A model generated the notes under the pieces. The model was not told the DNA's origin, did not search any database, and was given only the letters and a program-made list of their open reading frames with translations. A DNA stretch of 64,000 nt from an uncultured Clostridia bacterium (GTDB taxonomy: Bacteria > Bacillota > Clostridia > Lachnospirales > Lachnospiraceae), in assembly GCA_947643415.1 (NCBI GenBank), contig CANRWA010000016.1, positions 1-64,000 of the forward strand. Reading direction: 5' to 3'. Position numbers and translations under genes: made by a program. Position 1 is the first letter of the stretch; each line of letters begins with the position of its first letter. This document shows positions 57,509 through 62,697 of the stretch, piece by piece.

Positions 57509-59812
57509 CTACATCTCCAGCAAATATCTCCTTGTCTGCCTGATCTCTTCCGGCAGGTCAATTCCATTTTTCTCAAACTTACGCTCCAGCACAGAAATCG
57601 TCTGCTCCTGTTTGCGTTTCTCTGTTGTATAACGTCTCGCTGCCTCTTGGTAGGCATTCTGCACAAGAAGCCCCTGTGCCACATCCGATGCAAATGGGCA
57701 GTAAGTGAACAGGATTCCCCTGTTGATCCGGTTCAGACGCATGGCACCCACTGCCTCCCTCACAATCCAGTCCTGATAATCCCTGGCAAACACCTCTCTG
57801 TGCTTATTATTACACTGCTGTAACTGCAGCTTGATCTTTTCTTTCTTCTCTGGTGTCAATTCAGAATTCTTCCGGTAGAACTGCAGATAATCTGTATACT
57901 CACTTGTCAGGGATGGATACCGATAATTATTCCACTGCGCTCCCATATCAGTACGGCATTTCTCCCAGCGGAAATGAGCCATAAGTTTAAGGATTTCCTG
58001 AGACAGATCCTGCTCAAACAGAGAAGGCAGAAGAATACGGGCATGGGACTGTTTCACCCTGCCTTCAATATCCTGCCACAGCACCCCATTCCGCCCATAT
58101 ACCGGAAACAAAATAAAATCAGGCGTATAGCGGACAATATTCGTAAAGTTTGGAACTTCAATCTTAGGATAGCTGATAAGTTTCTCTCTATAGAAGATAC
58201 TATAATCCAGTTTCTCCAGCTTCCGTACTTCGGAGTTGATAGCAGCACCTGTCACTACAGCATTCTCAATTTTATTATACAGTCCCTCTGAACAAAGCAC
58301 CGGAACAAAGGTGGAAATATTACCGTTGACATTACGGTCTGCATATCTCAGGAGTTTATCCACTTCAAAATGAAGTCTCTGATCCGGATCCCTAAACATA
58401 TCCTGCGCTGCCCGCTGCTCTATCTTTCCTGTTGCAGCCTCTTTTCTCAGATACTCTTCAAAATCTGTATCAAATTCATCTTTTGACGGATTTTTCCTTC
58501 CCTCGTAAATCTCTCTCAGCCACATCGGCATTGTATAAACCTTGCACTCCAGTGATTCATTATCAATTTCCGGCAGACCGATGAGTTCCTGAAGCTGGTC
58601 TGCTGTCAGAAGTTCTTCACTCACATAACCAAACCGCAGAAATAACCGGACTGCCAGCGGTGGATTATTATCCCGGAAACTCCTCTTGACTACTTCCTCA
58701 TAGATTGTAAAAAAACCGGCTGTAAGTTTCTTCCGCACCGCTGCTGCCTCTGGCACCCTGGCAAATTTATCCTGTAACCGGAGAAACTCTTCCACTGCTG
58801 TGGCAAAGTTCTGTGCCACTTCCTCATCCAGCGCCGTATACTCCAAAATCTGCCGGAGTGATCCACCTAACACTGATATGTCCTCTTTTTCTTCCGAATT
58901 GATATGCTCTTCATCATTTGAGAGAATCGCCAGATAGATCTTCTCCATCCGCTCTCTGTCCAGATTTGGATCAGCTCCTGCCATATCTGTGAGAACTGTC
59001 TCCATCTCATCAATTTTCTTCATCAGTTCATCCAGCATATGGACAAGCCGGCTTCCATCTTGTCCCGCCTTCCGTATAGCCATAGCCATTTTCCCTGTCA
59101 GTGAAAACAGATTTTTCTCATCCATAACCATAATGCGGAAAATGCGTCCCAGCCATTCCCCATAACTGCGGCATGCATCCAGTATCGTCGGTATCACCTG
59201 GCATTGGACCTCAAACTGGTCTTTCGCCACATACGCACTGCCACTATAGAAATTTCTTTGGGCCTCCACTGGGATCTGGCTGCACTGAATGCAATATTCA
59301 AGCCGCTCATGCAAAGACACTTCTCCTGGTCTCTGCTGTCTAAGCCGCTCAATGGAGGCAAGCTCCTCTGGCATAAGGCCAGAATCATTGACGACTGCCT
59401 TATATTCATCATACTTACTAAGCAGAAAACTATTGGCATCCTCTGCCTCCTGCTTCAATTTCTGATACATCCGGTACACCTGCGCTATGATAAAATTATA
59501 GGAAGTAACCAGAAGCCCTCTATACTGCTGTTTTTCATCCAGTACCATGCATGCCTGCTCAAAACTGCTGACAGGCAAACCGTATACAACCAGATCATCC
59601 AGGGCAGTGTAAGTAAAGGAATGTACTTTTAAACAGGTGTCACACATCCCCAGAAAATTTCCCGATCCAAGATTCAGCCGGATGCCATCTGCCTGTACCG
59701 AAACCCTCCCCTTCAGGATCAGTCCGACGGACTCTAATGGCTCACCTTTCTCAAAAACAACAGCCCCTTTCGGTACTGAATTCGTGGTATTCATGTTAAG
59801 GTCTACTGACAT
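57509..59812 (-). CDS. Large protein with N-terminal cNMP-binding (Crp-like) domain
   Basis: The 767-aa protein has a cyclic-nucleotide-binding fold at residues about 10-105 (PKGAVVFEKGEPLESVGLILKGRVSVQ, NLGSGNFLGMCD, FTYTALDDLVVYGLP). It lacks the conserved phosphate-binding RSA signature in a clear form, so ligand binding is uncertain. The remaining 650 residues are mostly helical with no recognised domain and contain many charged and Tyr/Phe residues, without membrane segments. It is the first gene of the minus-strand island and is followed 11 bp later by a lipoprotein. Role unknown; it may sense membrane or nucleotide signals and control the genes downstream. Confidence 0.7.
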   Translation of the reverse strand: MSVDLNMNTTNSVPKGAVVFEKGEPLESVGLILKGRVSVQADGIRLNLGSGNFLGMCDTCLKVHSFTYTALDDLVVYGLPVSSFEQACMVLDEKQQYRGLLVTSYNFIIAQVYRMYQKLKQEAEDANSFLLSKYDEYKAVVNDSGLMPEELASIERLRQQRPGEVSLHERLEYCIQCSQIPVEAQRNFYSGSAYVAKDQFEVQCQVIPTILDACRSYGEWLGRIFRIMVMDEKNLFSLTGKMAMAIRKAGQDGSRLVHMLDELMKKIDEMETVLTDMAGADPNLDRERMEKIYLAILSNDEEHINSEEKEDISVLGGSLRQILEYTALDEEVAQNFATAVEEFLRLQDKFARVPEAAAVRKKLTAGFFTIYEEVVKRSFRDNNPPLAVRLFLRFGYVSEELLTADQLQELIGLPEIDNESLECKVYTMPMWLREIYEGRKNPSKDEFDTDFEEYLRKEAATGKIEQRAAQDMFRDPDQRLHFEVDKLLRYADRNVNGNISTFVPVLCSEGLYNKIENAVVTGAAINSEVRKLEKLDYSIFYREKLISYPKIEVPNFTNIVRYTPDFILFPVYGRNGVLWQDIEGRVKQSHARILLPSLFEQDLSQEILKLMAHFRWEKCRTDMGAQWNNYRYPSLTSEYTDYLQFYRKNSELTPEKKEKIKLQLQQCNNKHREVFARDYQDWIVREAVGAMRLNRINRGILFTYCPFASDVAQGLLVQNAYQEAARRYTTEKRKQEQTISVLERKFEKNGIDLPEEIRQTRRYLLEM

Positions 59813-59992
59813 AATATAGTCTCCTCAAAGCTATTTTAAGTTATTTCTTCTGCTACATAAATCTGTTCACTATACTGCTGATTATATCTTTTTTTGCGCA
59901 CTCTGTCAATGAAATGTGTGATTTCGACAGCCTCTCCGCAGCCCCTTGTTACGGTTCACTGCCTTACTAGGGAGCGAACTGCAGCAACCCCT

Positions 59993-62635
59993 TCATTGCT
60001 GGCTGATATACTCTCCCATCCGCTCCTCTGCATGACGGATCTCTGCCTCTAAGTCTCTGGCAGACAAAAGGCGGCATCCCTCACCACGAATGATGATCTG
60101 TTCCATTCCATCAGAAGTCGCCACTGTCACATGGTGATGTCTGGCATTCTCATGGGCAAATTTCTCGATGTACTGGTCAGCCGTCTCTGCTTCTTTTGTA
60201 TACACCACAGTGATATTGTGGTAGGAAAAAACCTCTGTCCGGTGGTTCTGCACCCGGTAGGCATCAAATACCAGAATAAGCCGGCACTGCTGGAAACCCT
60301 GATAATTGCACAGGATATCCTGCAGCCGTCCTCTTGCAGCATCAATATTGACCTTAGACAATTCCCTCAGTTCTTCCCATGCAAAAATTATATTGTAGCC
60401 ATCCACAAGAAGAAAAGAATCCTTCTTGACCTGTTTCTTATTTGGTTTTGATAGTCCCACAGGTTTTGATGTGACAGACCGTACTCTGGCAGCGGATATT
60501 CCTTTGTGGGATGCTGGTGTGCCTTTGCGGTTAGAGTGAGAGGCCCGCTCAAGGATCTGGTCAATCTCCTCCACATCGATCCATTCCTCTTCCTGTCCTG
60601 CCTGAAGCCCATAATCCATTTCTTCCCCTGGCTTGTCCCCCTCTGTCTGTCTGGCACTCTCCACTGCTGTATCTATATGCATGTAATTTCTCACTTCATT
60701 CCACGGCACATTAAATCCCGCCCCATGGGCACAAAATACAGATCCTGCCGGATTCCCTGCATCCCTCTCTGGGTCATACCCTTTTGCCAGGATCACTTCA
60801 TCTGCATTGTGGCAGGGGCGGTATCCTGCCAGACGGCAGAACAATCTTCCCCTTCCCTTTGTATAGGCAGTAACTTCCCTGGGATAATCCCTCATCGTGA
60901 TGATAGGGGCACATCCTGTCATCACTGCCATGCCAGATGAAGATTCCAATGCAAATGTCCCTGCCATCCGGTCAATATCTGCCATTGCACGGCCTACAGT
61001 TTCTTCTGGCACTTCAAGGCGGAAGTCATAATATGGCTCTAAGAGAACCGATTCTGCCCGCATCAGTCCCTGACGGACGGCACGGTATGCCGCCTGACGG
61101 AAATCCCCTCCCTCGGTATGCTTTAAGTGCGCTCTTCCGGCGATCAGTGTAACTTTTACATCGGTAAGCGCTGATCCTGTCAGAACTCCCGGGTGTTCCC
61201 GTTCCAGCAGATGTGTCAGAACCAGTCTCTGCCAGTTCTTGTCCAATACATCCTCACTGCAGTTGATATCTGCCTGAAATCCACTGCCCGTCTCTCCCGG
61301 CTCCAGCCAGAGATGAACTTCCGCATAATGGCGCAGCGGCTCAAAATGCCCCACGCCCTCTACTGCTGTGGCAATCGTTTCCTTATACACAATATTTCCT
61401 GTGCCAAATGTAACCTTTACCCCAAATCTCTCTTCAATGAGATTCTGCAGGATCTCAATCTGCACCTCCCCCATCACCTGTGCCTGTATCTCCTGCAGTT
61501 CTTCCTTCCACACGATATGCAGTTCTGGTTCTTCTTCCTCTAGTTGTCTTAGCTTCGGCAGCATCACCGCAGCATCCACTCCATCCGGAAGCTGGATCTG
61601 ATAGGTGAGCACAGGTTCCAGAACTGGCCTTTTCCCTTTTTGTTCTATGCCAAGCCCCTCACCCGGATATGTCTTCGTCAAGCCGGTCAGAGCGCATACC
61701 ATCCCCGCCGGGGCTTCATTTACTGTCTCATATCTGCTGCCCGAATAGACACGGATCTGATTTACCTTTTCCTGCCATCCCTCGTGAACATCCTCCAGTT
61801 CCATCCTTGCCCGCAGCACACCACCTGTCACCTTCACATAAGTAAGGCGGTTTCCAGACTCATCTCTTGCTATCTTAAACACCCTGGCTCCAAACTCATC
61901 TGAATATCTCCCTGGTTCTATATACTTTTTAAATGCATTCAGAAATTCCTCCACCCCTCTCAGCTTTAATGCAGAACCAAAGAAACAGGGATATATTTTC
62001 CGCTCTCTTATGAGCCGCGGAATACAAGAAAGATCCAGGGTACCCTCTTCCAGGAACTGTTCTAATAACCCATCTTCACAGAGAGCAATATTTTCCAGAA
62101 ACCCGTCACTGGCCTCATTAGAAAAATCCACACAACTACTCTCCAGCCTGGTCTGCAGTTCCTCCAATATCTTCTCTTTTTCTGCTCCTGGCTGGTCCAT
62201 CTTATTGACAAATAAAAAAACAGGAACCCCATACTGCTCCAGAAGTCTCCACAATGTCTCTGTATGTCCCTGTACACCGTCAGATCCACTGATAACGAGA
62301 ACTGCATAATCCAGTACTTGCAGAGTCCTCTCCATCTCTGCTGAAAAATCCACATGCCCCGGAGTATCCAGAAGAGTTACACAGGCATCCCCCAGATCCA
62401 GTATGGCCTGCTTAGAGAAAATCGTGATCCCACGTTCCTTTTCCAGCCCATAGGTATCCAGAAAAGCATCTCCTTTATCCACCCTTCCGAGCCGCTTCAA
62501 CCTTCCTGCTGTATATAAGAGCCCCTCTGATAGGGTTGTCTTACCCGCATCCACATGTGCCAGCAGAGCAACGGTAATATGCTTTGATGGCCTTCTATCC
62601 AACCTGTTTTCTTGCTTTTCAGGCATATCTTTCAT
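59993..62635 (-). CDS. TetM-like translational GTPase fused to a NYN (YacP/Rae1-like) nuclease domain
   Basis: The first 650 residues form a ribosomal-protection/EF-G-like GTPase: G1 AHVDAGKTT (26-34), G2 RGITI, G3 DTPGH (90-94), G4 NKMD, G5 GSA, then EF-G-like domains II-V. After a polar linker (about 650-736) comes a NYN domain (about 737-870), with the acidic active site in LLVDGYN (D745), VFDAYR (D791), ETADQYI (D820) and TSDGMEQ (D842). NYN domains of the YacP/Rae1 family are RNases; Rae1 cuts mRNA in the ribosomal A site. The fusion would bring GTPase-driven ribosome binding and RNA cleavage into one 880-aa chain. It may act in ribosome rescue or drug tolerance; no direct resistance is claimed. 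Its promoter and ribosome-binding site lie in an inverted repeat. Confidence 0.88.
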   Translation of the reverse strand: MKDMPEKQENRLDRRPSKHITVALLAHVDAGKTTLSEGLLYTAGRLKRLGRVDKGDAFLDTYGLEKERGITIFSKQAILDLGDACVTLLDTPGHVDFSAEMERTLQVLDYAVLVISGSDGVQGHTETLWRLLEQYGVPVFLFVNKMDQPGAEKEKILEELQTRLESSCVDFSNEASDGFLENIALCEDGLLEQFLEEGTLDLSCIPRLIRERKIYPCFFGSALKLRGVEEFLNAFKKYIEPGRYSDEFGARVFKIARDESGNRLTYVKVTGGVLRARMELEDVHEGWQEKVNQIRVYSGSRYETVNEAPAGMVCALTGLTKTYPGEGLGIEQKGKRPVLEPVLTYQIQLPDGVDAAVMLPKLRQLEEEEPELHIVWKEELQEIQAQVMGEVQIEILQNLIEERFGVKVTFGTGNIVYKETIATAVEGVGHFEPLRHYAEVHLWLEPGETGSGFQADINCSEDVLDKNWQRLVLTHLLEREHPGVLTGSALTDVKVTLIAGRAHLKHTEGGDFRQAAYRAVRQGLMRAESVLLEPYYDFRLEVPEETVGRAMADIDRMAGTFALESSSGMAVMTGCAPIITMRDYPREVTAYTKGRGRLFCRLAGYRPCHNADEVILAKGYDPERDAGNPAGSVFCAHGAGFNVPWNEVRNYMHIDTAVESARQTEGDKPGEEMDYGLQAGQEEEWIDVEEIDQILERASHSNRKGTPASHKGISAARVRSVTSKPVGLSKPNKKQVKKDSFLLVDGYNIIFAWEELRELSKVNIDAARGRLQDILCNYQGFQQCRLILVFDAYRVQNHRTEVFSYHNITVVYTKEAETADQYIEKFAHENARHHHVTVATSDGMEQIIIRGEGCRLLSARDLEAEIRHAEERMGEYISQQ

Positions 62636-62640
62636 AGAAA

Positions 62641-62697
62641 ATGTCCCTTTCCGTGCTATAATATTTCCATTATAACACGGAAAGGGACATCCGTCGA
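62641..62697 (-). promoter_or_regulatory. Promoter of the GTPase-NYN gene inside a perfect inverted repeat
   Basis: ATGTCCCTTTCCGTG (62641-62655) is fully complementary to CACGGAAAGGGACAT (62676-62690), with TATAA/TTATA extending inwards. On the minus strand -10 TATAAT (62669-62674) lies in the loop, -35 TCGACG (62692-62697) just outside, spacing 17. The arm nearest the gene holds the ribosome-binding sequence AAAGGGA. The same hairpin followed by TTTTC could end the upstream MCP transcript. Confidence 0.65.

Follow-up and report, generated by a model that had tools for sequence, protein, structure and literature searches.

Rae1 (YacP) is a NYN-domain nuclease characterized from Bacillus subtilis, and the parts of two publications that deal with its target state that it attacks mRNA in the ribosomal A site (PMC12320835, PMC6613710). 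A passage of PMC4342817 cites the first proposal for NYN domains, a part in the maturation of rRNA and tRNA. The B. subtilis rae1 gene is co-transcribed with yacO, a 23S methyltransferase gene, and the two genes suppress efp without additivity, according to the relevant sections of PMC6613710. The sections of Atkinson 2015 that concern domain fusions report that a YacP-like NYN domain was gained by Tet proteins in ten species of Clostridiales, and suggest RNase-based resistance for these Tet-NYN fusions (PMC4342817). The GTPase-NYN architecture has therefore been in print since 2015 and is not new. No functional study of such a fusion was found in the open-licence literature, of which the larger result sets were covered in part.

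The fusion described here is encoded in a 64,000-nucleotide stretch of DNA from an uncultured clostridial bacterium, referred to as the window. The gene and its domains are laid out as follows.

59993..62635, minus strand: whole gene, 880 aa, translational GTPase joined to a YacP/Rae1 NYN nuclease (open reading frame, Pfam)
61916..62584, minus strand: G domain, aa 18-240 (Pfam GTP_EFTU, conservation)
60806..61894, minus strand: domains II to V in EF-G order, aa 248-610 (Pfam, model match)
60677..60835, minus strand: tail at the C-terminus of the GTPase half, conserved and predicted to be folded, aa 601-653
60416..60676, minus strand: variable linker, aa 654-740, predicted to be flexible (alignment, model)
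60002..60412, minus strand: NYN_YacP (Rae1-like) nuclease domain, aa 742-878 (Pfam, alignment)

The Pfam matches run in the order GTP_EFTU (18-240), EF-G_D2 (248-321), EFG_III (340-411), EFG_IV (414-527), EFG_C (530-610) and NYN_YacP (PF05991, 742-878; E 4.1e-47, 160.7 bits against a cut-off of 24.6). The first-pass annotation had proposed that one chain joins a ribosome-type GTPase to a Rae1-type NYN domain and had recommended an HMM search of both halves; Pfam matches both, and the single 880-aa frame confirms the joining. The protein fits the architecture reported for Clostridiales by the fusion sections of Atkinson 2015, a likeness of architecture rather than a comparison of accessions. 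Those sections describe ten species and a resistance role, whereas the fusion is found here to be widespread, to alternate with Rae1 and to fall outside the RPP clade.

The spread of the fusion was determined from two genome samples searched with the NYN_YacP profile. Matches were classed by open-frame length (fused, at least 700 aa; standalone, at most 220 aa), and the presence of the GTPase in the long NYN frames was compared by eye with the GTPase matches. The first sample, 99 relatives including the source genome, features 88 genomes with a match, which are 59 fused, 24 standalone and 5 intermediate; three of the intermediates (G009, G012, G032) have GTPase pieces that were seemingly cut by contig ends, and the other two are G013 and G097, described below. 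The second sample, 138 genomes across the class, features 90 genomes with a match, which are 50 fused (the source genome again among them), 39 standalone and 1 intermediate (G149). The samples share two genomes (G000 and G074) and so comprise 235 clostridial genomes, 108 with the fusion and 63 with a standalone Rae1. None of the 235 genomes combines a fused NYN_YacP with a full-length standalone one, compared with about 29 expected under independence, a rough yardstick given shared ancestry. The profile search found no further NYN_YacP (Rae1) in the source genome besides the window gene. Weak second NYN matches are seen in G080, a 26-position fragment in a 62-aa frame just above the cut-off, and in G233, below the cut-off. 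Both states occur within five families (f1, f24, f45, f46, f50), which indicates that fused and standalone forms replace each other.

Additionally, a GTPase query of named genomes returned at least 597 relatives, and 80 loci were kept for analysis; the fusion lies in one frame in 78 and in two frames in the other 2 (L112, L127). Absence from relatives had been named as grounds for rejecting the fusion; it is present in 78/80 loci and in 108/235 genomes by survey, and this recurrence in one frame rules out an assembly error or a chance fusion. Among the matches listed, most fused loci from named genomes belong to isolates and bins of gut origin, and others are found in Desulfosporosinus acididurans, Anaerovorax odorimutans and Caproicibacter fermentans. 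The protein occurs in many common gut bacteria and also in soil Clostridia. Two large plasmid records, from Agathobacter rectalis and Monoglobus pectinilyticus, hold fused copies, and a relative appears in only two viral contigs, with the matches near the contig end. One genome bin, 61% complete, has two fused copies (G230, contigs C16 and C48). The GTPase and the NYN domain lie in different, overlapping frames at L112:4786-7492 and L127:4879-7435 and in separate adjacent frames at G013:C3 near 139088-140504; these are possibly sequencing errors or true splits. A reduced relative of 504 aa (L063:3417-4931, genome G097) features the GTPase part up to domain III, the linker motif and the NYN domain; it is without domains IV-V, and the P-loop part is absent from the frame. 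The NYN tree is weakly resolved and the GTPase trees place Ligilactobacillus salivarius weakly inside the fused clade, so that the trees give no firm count of fusions or losses.

The GTPase half is a member of the EF-G superfamily by its G motifs and domains I-V (Pfam, alignment, VIA-align). The G motifs are intact in the window protein (G1 AHVDAGKTT, RGITIF, DTPGH, NKMD, GSAL), and its predicted model matches ribosome-bound EF-G over aa 13-624; among the 50 VIA-align matches listed none extends past residue 632, so that they cover the GTPase part and little of the tail, without the NYN domain. Conservation was counted in 97 full fused proteins, which are 102 fused ORFs minus two duplicates (L072, L073) and three contig-end sequences (L088, L123, L135), and the unfused set consists of nine ORFs minus the short L060 and minus L112 and L127, in which the NYN domain has a frame of its own. 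The G1 lysine is kept in 96 of the 97 (one gap), DTPGH in 97, N144 in 96 and K145 in 97, and by position the G motifs are kept in 89 to 97. The GTPase had been described as ending after domain V. Domains I-V are indeed present, but the chain does not end there, since a conserved tail (about 601-653) with the motif GYxxCHN...SVFCxHGxGxxVxW comes next. This tail recurs in L. salivarius and, in less conserved form, in 5 of the 6 full unfused clostridial relatives, and hardly in L059. It occupies the place of the shorter RPP C-terminal extension, and the NYN domain therefore hangs from that place.

The "TetM-like" description of the first-pass annotation, taken in the drug-protection sense, is not supported. 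The window protein shares its domain order with TetM, TetO, TetW and TetB(P) and belongs to a sister clade, but it is only 28-31% identical to these RPPs and differs from them in loop III, in its different and longer tail and in the NYN domain. In domain IV, loop III has the sequence KHTEGGDFR (aa 505-513) instead of the RPP-type STPxDFR, and H506, T507, G510 and D511 are constant in all 97 fused proteins. A GTPase tree that includes TetB(P) groups the fused with the unfused relatives in a single clade (99/98), with the RPP clade (100/99) as its sister and EF-G (100/100) likewise apart; the RPPs are also the sister in a tree without TetB(P), where the RPP and EF-G branches were flagged as long. 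The five-domain fold resembles EF-G and EF-G2, whereas the loops and tail differ, and identity to seven EF-G-type rows is 24-27%. Unfused proteins annotated "translation factor GTPase" in L. salivarius pMP118 and some Clostridia are 37-51% identical over the GTPase (37-43% for the clostridial proteins, 51% for L. salivarius) and have a similar loop III and mostly the tail, without linker or nuclease. The best NCBIfam model is tet_protect, at 404.3 bits against a cut-off of 775, and the scores are likewise below the cut-offs for tet_protect_M_W (261.8 against 1100) and for the EF-G equivalog TIGR00484 (292.6 against 659.4). Five scanned unfused relatives also fall below 775, while control proteins from relatives (L152, L153, L154, L155) pass both RPP cut-offs; the RPP-like L156 scores 685, below the cut-off. 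Because the protein forms its own clade beside the RPPs, misses the curated cut-offs and has no RPP loop III, the "Tet" label is doubtful.

These data bear on the suggestion of Atkinson 2015 that the protein protects against tetracycline or another A-site drug, with the GTPase dislodging the drug and the nuclease contributing to resistance through action on mRNA or rRNA. That tet_protect is the closest NCBIfam model (404 bits) and that the RPPs are the sister clade are in keeping with such a role, as are the public records that call relatives TetM/TetW/TetO/TetS family, the two plasmid records and the tolerance of TetM for some loop III changes. We consider the role improbable, however: the window protein and the five unfused relatives miss the tet_protect cut-off, the fusion also occurs in environmental species, and two fusion carriers (G043, G053) also encode proteins above the tet_protect_M_W cut-off. 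The findings suggest that a common gene, though often deposited as tetracycline resistance, probably has another function, a point of importance to resistance surveys.

The nuclease half resembles B. subtilis Rae1/YacP in its NYN domain with four aspartates and in its one copy per genome. It differs in being fused to a GTPase and in lacking the C-terminal tail. The NYN part alone matches the solved B. subtilis structures (5MQ8, 5MQ9) with an E value of 2.8e-22, and D745, D791, D820 and D842 align on the Rae1 aspartates. Poor conservation of these acidic residues would have counted against a nuclease; each of the four is D in all 97 full fused relatives, and Q846, T818 and Y793 are invariant as well. 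The NYN domain had also been called full, which is true of the four acidic residues but not of its length, since the profile ends at position 142 of 166 and the Rae1 C-terminal tail is missing. The chain of 880 residues without this tail is therefore distinct from a standalone Rae1, which has about 170 residues and a conserved C-terminal tail. The profile reaches position 159 or further in 63/63 standalone matches, and it ends at position 155 or earlier in 77/108 fused matches, the window included, two of the fused matches (G048, G178) being short pieces; the remaining 31/108 fused proteins reach the tail region. A tail regex matches 15/15 standalone rows (one sequence entered twice, as L017 and L070) and 13/97 fused rows, but it overlooks variants such as MEEVRLG, and profile reach was therefore used for the tail counts. 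Two changes found among the efp suppressors of B. subtilis, rae1 R166P and a deletion of nucleotides 469-473, map to the C-terminal tail; the section of PMC6613710 on suppressors interprets both as loss of function. On the simplest view, the GTPase half may render the Rae1 tail dispensable, for example as a ribosome anchor. Simple C-terminal decay could also account for the tail loss, and common ancestry inflates the counts.

The two halves are joined by a linker of 68-136 residues (median 85; 98 sequences, window included), which has at least 68 residues in 98/98. The linker contains a motif with E690 in 51/53, I694 in 53/53 and T698 in 50/53, by column counts; the window linker has A instead of T at position 698. 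In the close pair L032/L033, dN/dS rises from 0.047 in the NYN domain through 0.067 in the tail and 0.091 in the GTPase to 0.35 in the linker. The window compared with L033 and with L032 gives the same order, but with high dS. In the comparison with L034, dS of the NYN domain and linker is saturated, and the tail has a higher dN/dS than the GTPase. Across three close pairs no part of the chain has a lower dN/dS than the NYN domain, which is thus the most constrained part in such pairs. The long, fast-evolving linker would suit two unrelated activities held on one chain for expression, a general anti-stalling GTPase and an ordinary Rae1 NYN domain, and so would the separate frames in L112, L127 and possibly G013 and the existence of unfused GTPases. 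Such an arrangement seems unlikely to us, since the fusion is kept across many families (108/235 genomes), the shortfall of the Rae1 tail is confined to fused forms and the linker motif is conserved.

Unfused GTPases with 40-54% identity over the queried part were found in 13 genomes; matches at about 31-34% identity were counted as EF-G-like and excluded, as was G228, where a GTPase fragment lacking a NYN domain lies at a contig end. Their frames have 648-675 aa, except in G083, where the frame has 454 aa with a stop, and G218 has two. A standalone NYN is present in 8 of the 13 (G066, G070, G073, G083, G087, G089, G165, G218), and the other 5 (G071, G127, G132, G159, G175) show no NYN_YacP match. 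Conversely, only 8/63 standalone-Rae1 genomes have an unfused GTPase and the other 55 are without one, which indicates that the nuclease is kept more often and that the GTPase is not tied to it outside the fusion. A general partnership of unfused GTPase and standalone Rae1 was considered and set aside, as these counts (8/13; 8/63 genomes) show no strong link. In L. salivarius pMP118, a megaplasmid, the unfused GTPase (L165:3399-5917) is recorded as a Tet protein and lies divergently beside rpsN, an S14 gene, and a gene for a small "putative metal homeostasis protein".

The protein is a real, conserved and widespread GTPase-nuclease fusion, and it is most likely a GTP-controlled form of Rae1. 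A natural fusion of Rae1 to a ribosomal GTPase suggests a testable route by which Rae1 could reach the A site and be controlled. The specific proposal, which we hold with middling confidence judging from sequence comparison, is that the chain docks on the ribosome through its GTPase half, which brings the nuclease to the A site. It draws on the single NYN_YacP state per genome (fused or standalone, never both full length), the intact aspartates and G motifs, the lowest dN/dS in the NYN domain, and a Rae1 tail that is short in 77/108 fused and reached in 63/63 standalone proteins. It also draws on the EF-G-like model, the linker of at least 68 residues and the A-site role given to Rae1 in the cited passages. 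Arguing against it are the rarity of GTPase and Rae1 as partners outside the fusion (8/63; 5/13 without NYN), the 31/108 fused proteins that keep the tail, and a leader hairpin, described below, that is missing in most fused genes and in the two closest relatives.

In this proposal, a dedicated EF-G/RPP-like GTPase would carry the nuclease into the ribosome, in place of a small free Rae1. The GTPase would bind the factor site of stalled ribosomes while domain IV probes the A site; upon GTP hydrolysis domain IV would leave, and the tethered NYN domain would enter the A site and cut the mRNA, after which rescue by tmRNA or others could follow. An EF-G-type domain IV would be a competitor of Rae1 for the A site, which requires either that the steps follow one another or that they take place on different ribosomes. 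The role of the Rae1 C-terminal tail, which many fused members have lost, would likewise fall to the GTPase half and may be docking. A further version, which we offer only tentatively, is that the protein is a GTP-switched no-go decay factor, in which an EF-G mimic recognises the stall, clears the A site and next cuts the mRNA in it; it would have replaced Rae1 across much of Clostridia, in some cases with a promoter-in-hairpin guard that limits translation to transcripts of the gene's own promoter. A role in ribosome maturation or in rRNA/tRNA processing, with the GTPase checking new or damaged particles and the NYN domain trimming or destroying RNA, is rather unlikely, if somewhat less so than drug protection. 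It would agree with the first proposal for NYN domains (cited in a passage of PMC4342817) and with the co-transcription and non-additive efp suppression of rae1 and yacO in B. subtilis (sections of PMC6613710), while the published statements on Rae1, the nearest homologue, point to A-site mRNA in the parts that treat its target.

The fused gene of the window may also be guarded at the level of expression by a leader hairpin with an embedded promoter.

62642..62689, minus strand: inverted repeat of 20 pairs directly 5' of the start codon, with arms that covary in relatives
62669..62697, minus strand: promoter-like TCGACG-17-TATAAT with an extended -10 (TGT), identified by sequence pattern

The right arm contains the presumed Shine-Dalgarno GGAAAGGGA (62652-62644), followed by TTTTC, and the left arm holds the promoter spacer and the extended -10 TGTTATAAT, behind the TCGACG -35. 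The pattern TCGAC-N16-20-TAyrnT is found in 20 of 102 upstream regions (95 fused, 7 other), and all 20 belong to fused genes. Inverted repeats over the Shine-Dalgarno region with a score of at least 9 occur in 8/102, compared with 1.4% of 725 other genes, and 6 of the 8 have the promoter pattern (L095 and L141 do not). In 19 leaders the own arms pair better than swapped arms (0/10000 permutations reach it; L109 and L096 fail and L147 barely succeeds), and over 12 pairs 87.7% of cells pair and 9 pairs show two-sided changes, in 29 cells compared with 11.7 in shuffles; since the rows are related, the permutation and shuffle figures are not probabilities. Further pair types are not raised (111/500 shuffles reach the count), and sliding the pairing partner reduces every covariation measure. 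Besides that of the window, leaders with the covarying repeat and the extended -10 promoter in its left arm include L047, L131, L093, L088, L034, L081, L090, L100, L104, L132, L133 and L142 among others, and the Shine-Dalgarno is mostly in the right arm.

The leader pattern is absent from the two closest relatives (L032, L033) and from most fused genes. The exact pattern occurs once in the source genome, so there is no regulon at that strictness, and in 39 genomes of the genus it gives 10 matches, 4 of them at the fused gene by coordinates. Rfam has no family above threshold for the window hairpin, and two sub-threshold microRNA models were dismissed as chance. The computed fold of a transcript started upstream is -40.5 kcal/mol (z -8), and that of one started in the loop, at the presumed start, is -3.7. 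As the strong fold forms only from an upstream start, RNA that reads through would go untranslated or be terminated, which would leave only transcripts of the embedded promoter to be translated. For the window gene and roughly one fused gene in five, the hairpin would hide the Shine-Dalgarno or end transcription in read-through transcripts, and such a guard may block accidental expression. The repeat could instead be a DNA operator, a reading that gains from L132, which keeps the repeat though its likely Shine-Dalgarno lies outside; G-U pairs and differing Shine-Dalgarno versions with matching partners favour RNA pairing.

Clusters of ORFs around 119 loci reveal no clear conserved partner of the fused gene, the widest other cluster covering 17 loci. 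In the window, a perfect promoter-like TTGACA-17-TATAAT site lies 3' of the fused gene (59881-59909, minus strand) and precedes a 767-aa ORF (57509-59812) that by eye is of the cyclic-nucleotide-binding type. This site suggests that the fused gene and the 767-aa ORF are probably separate units.
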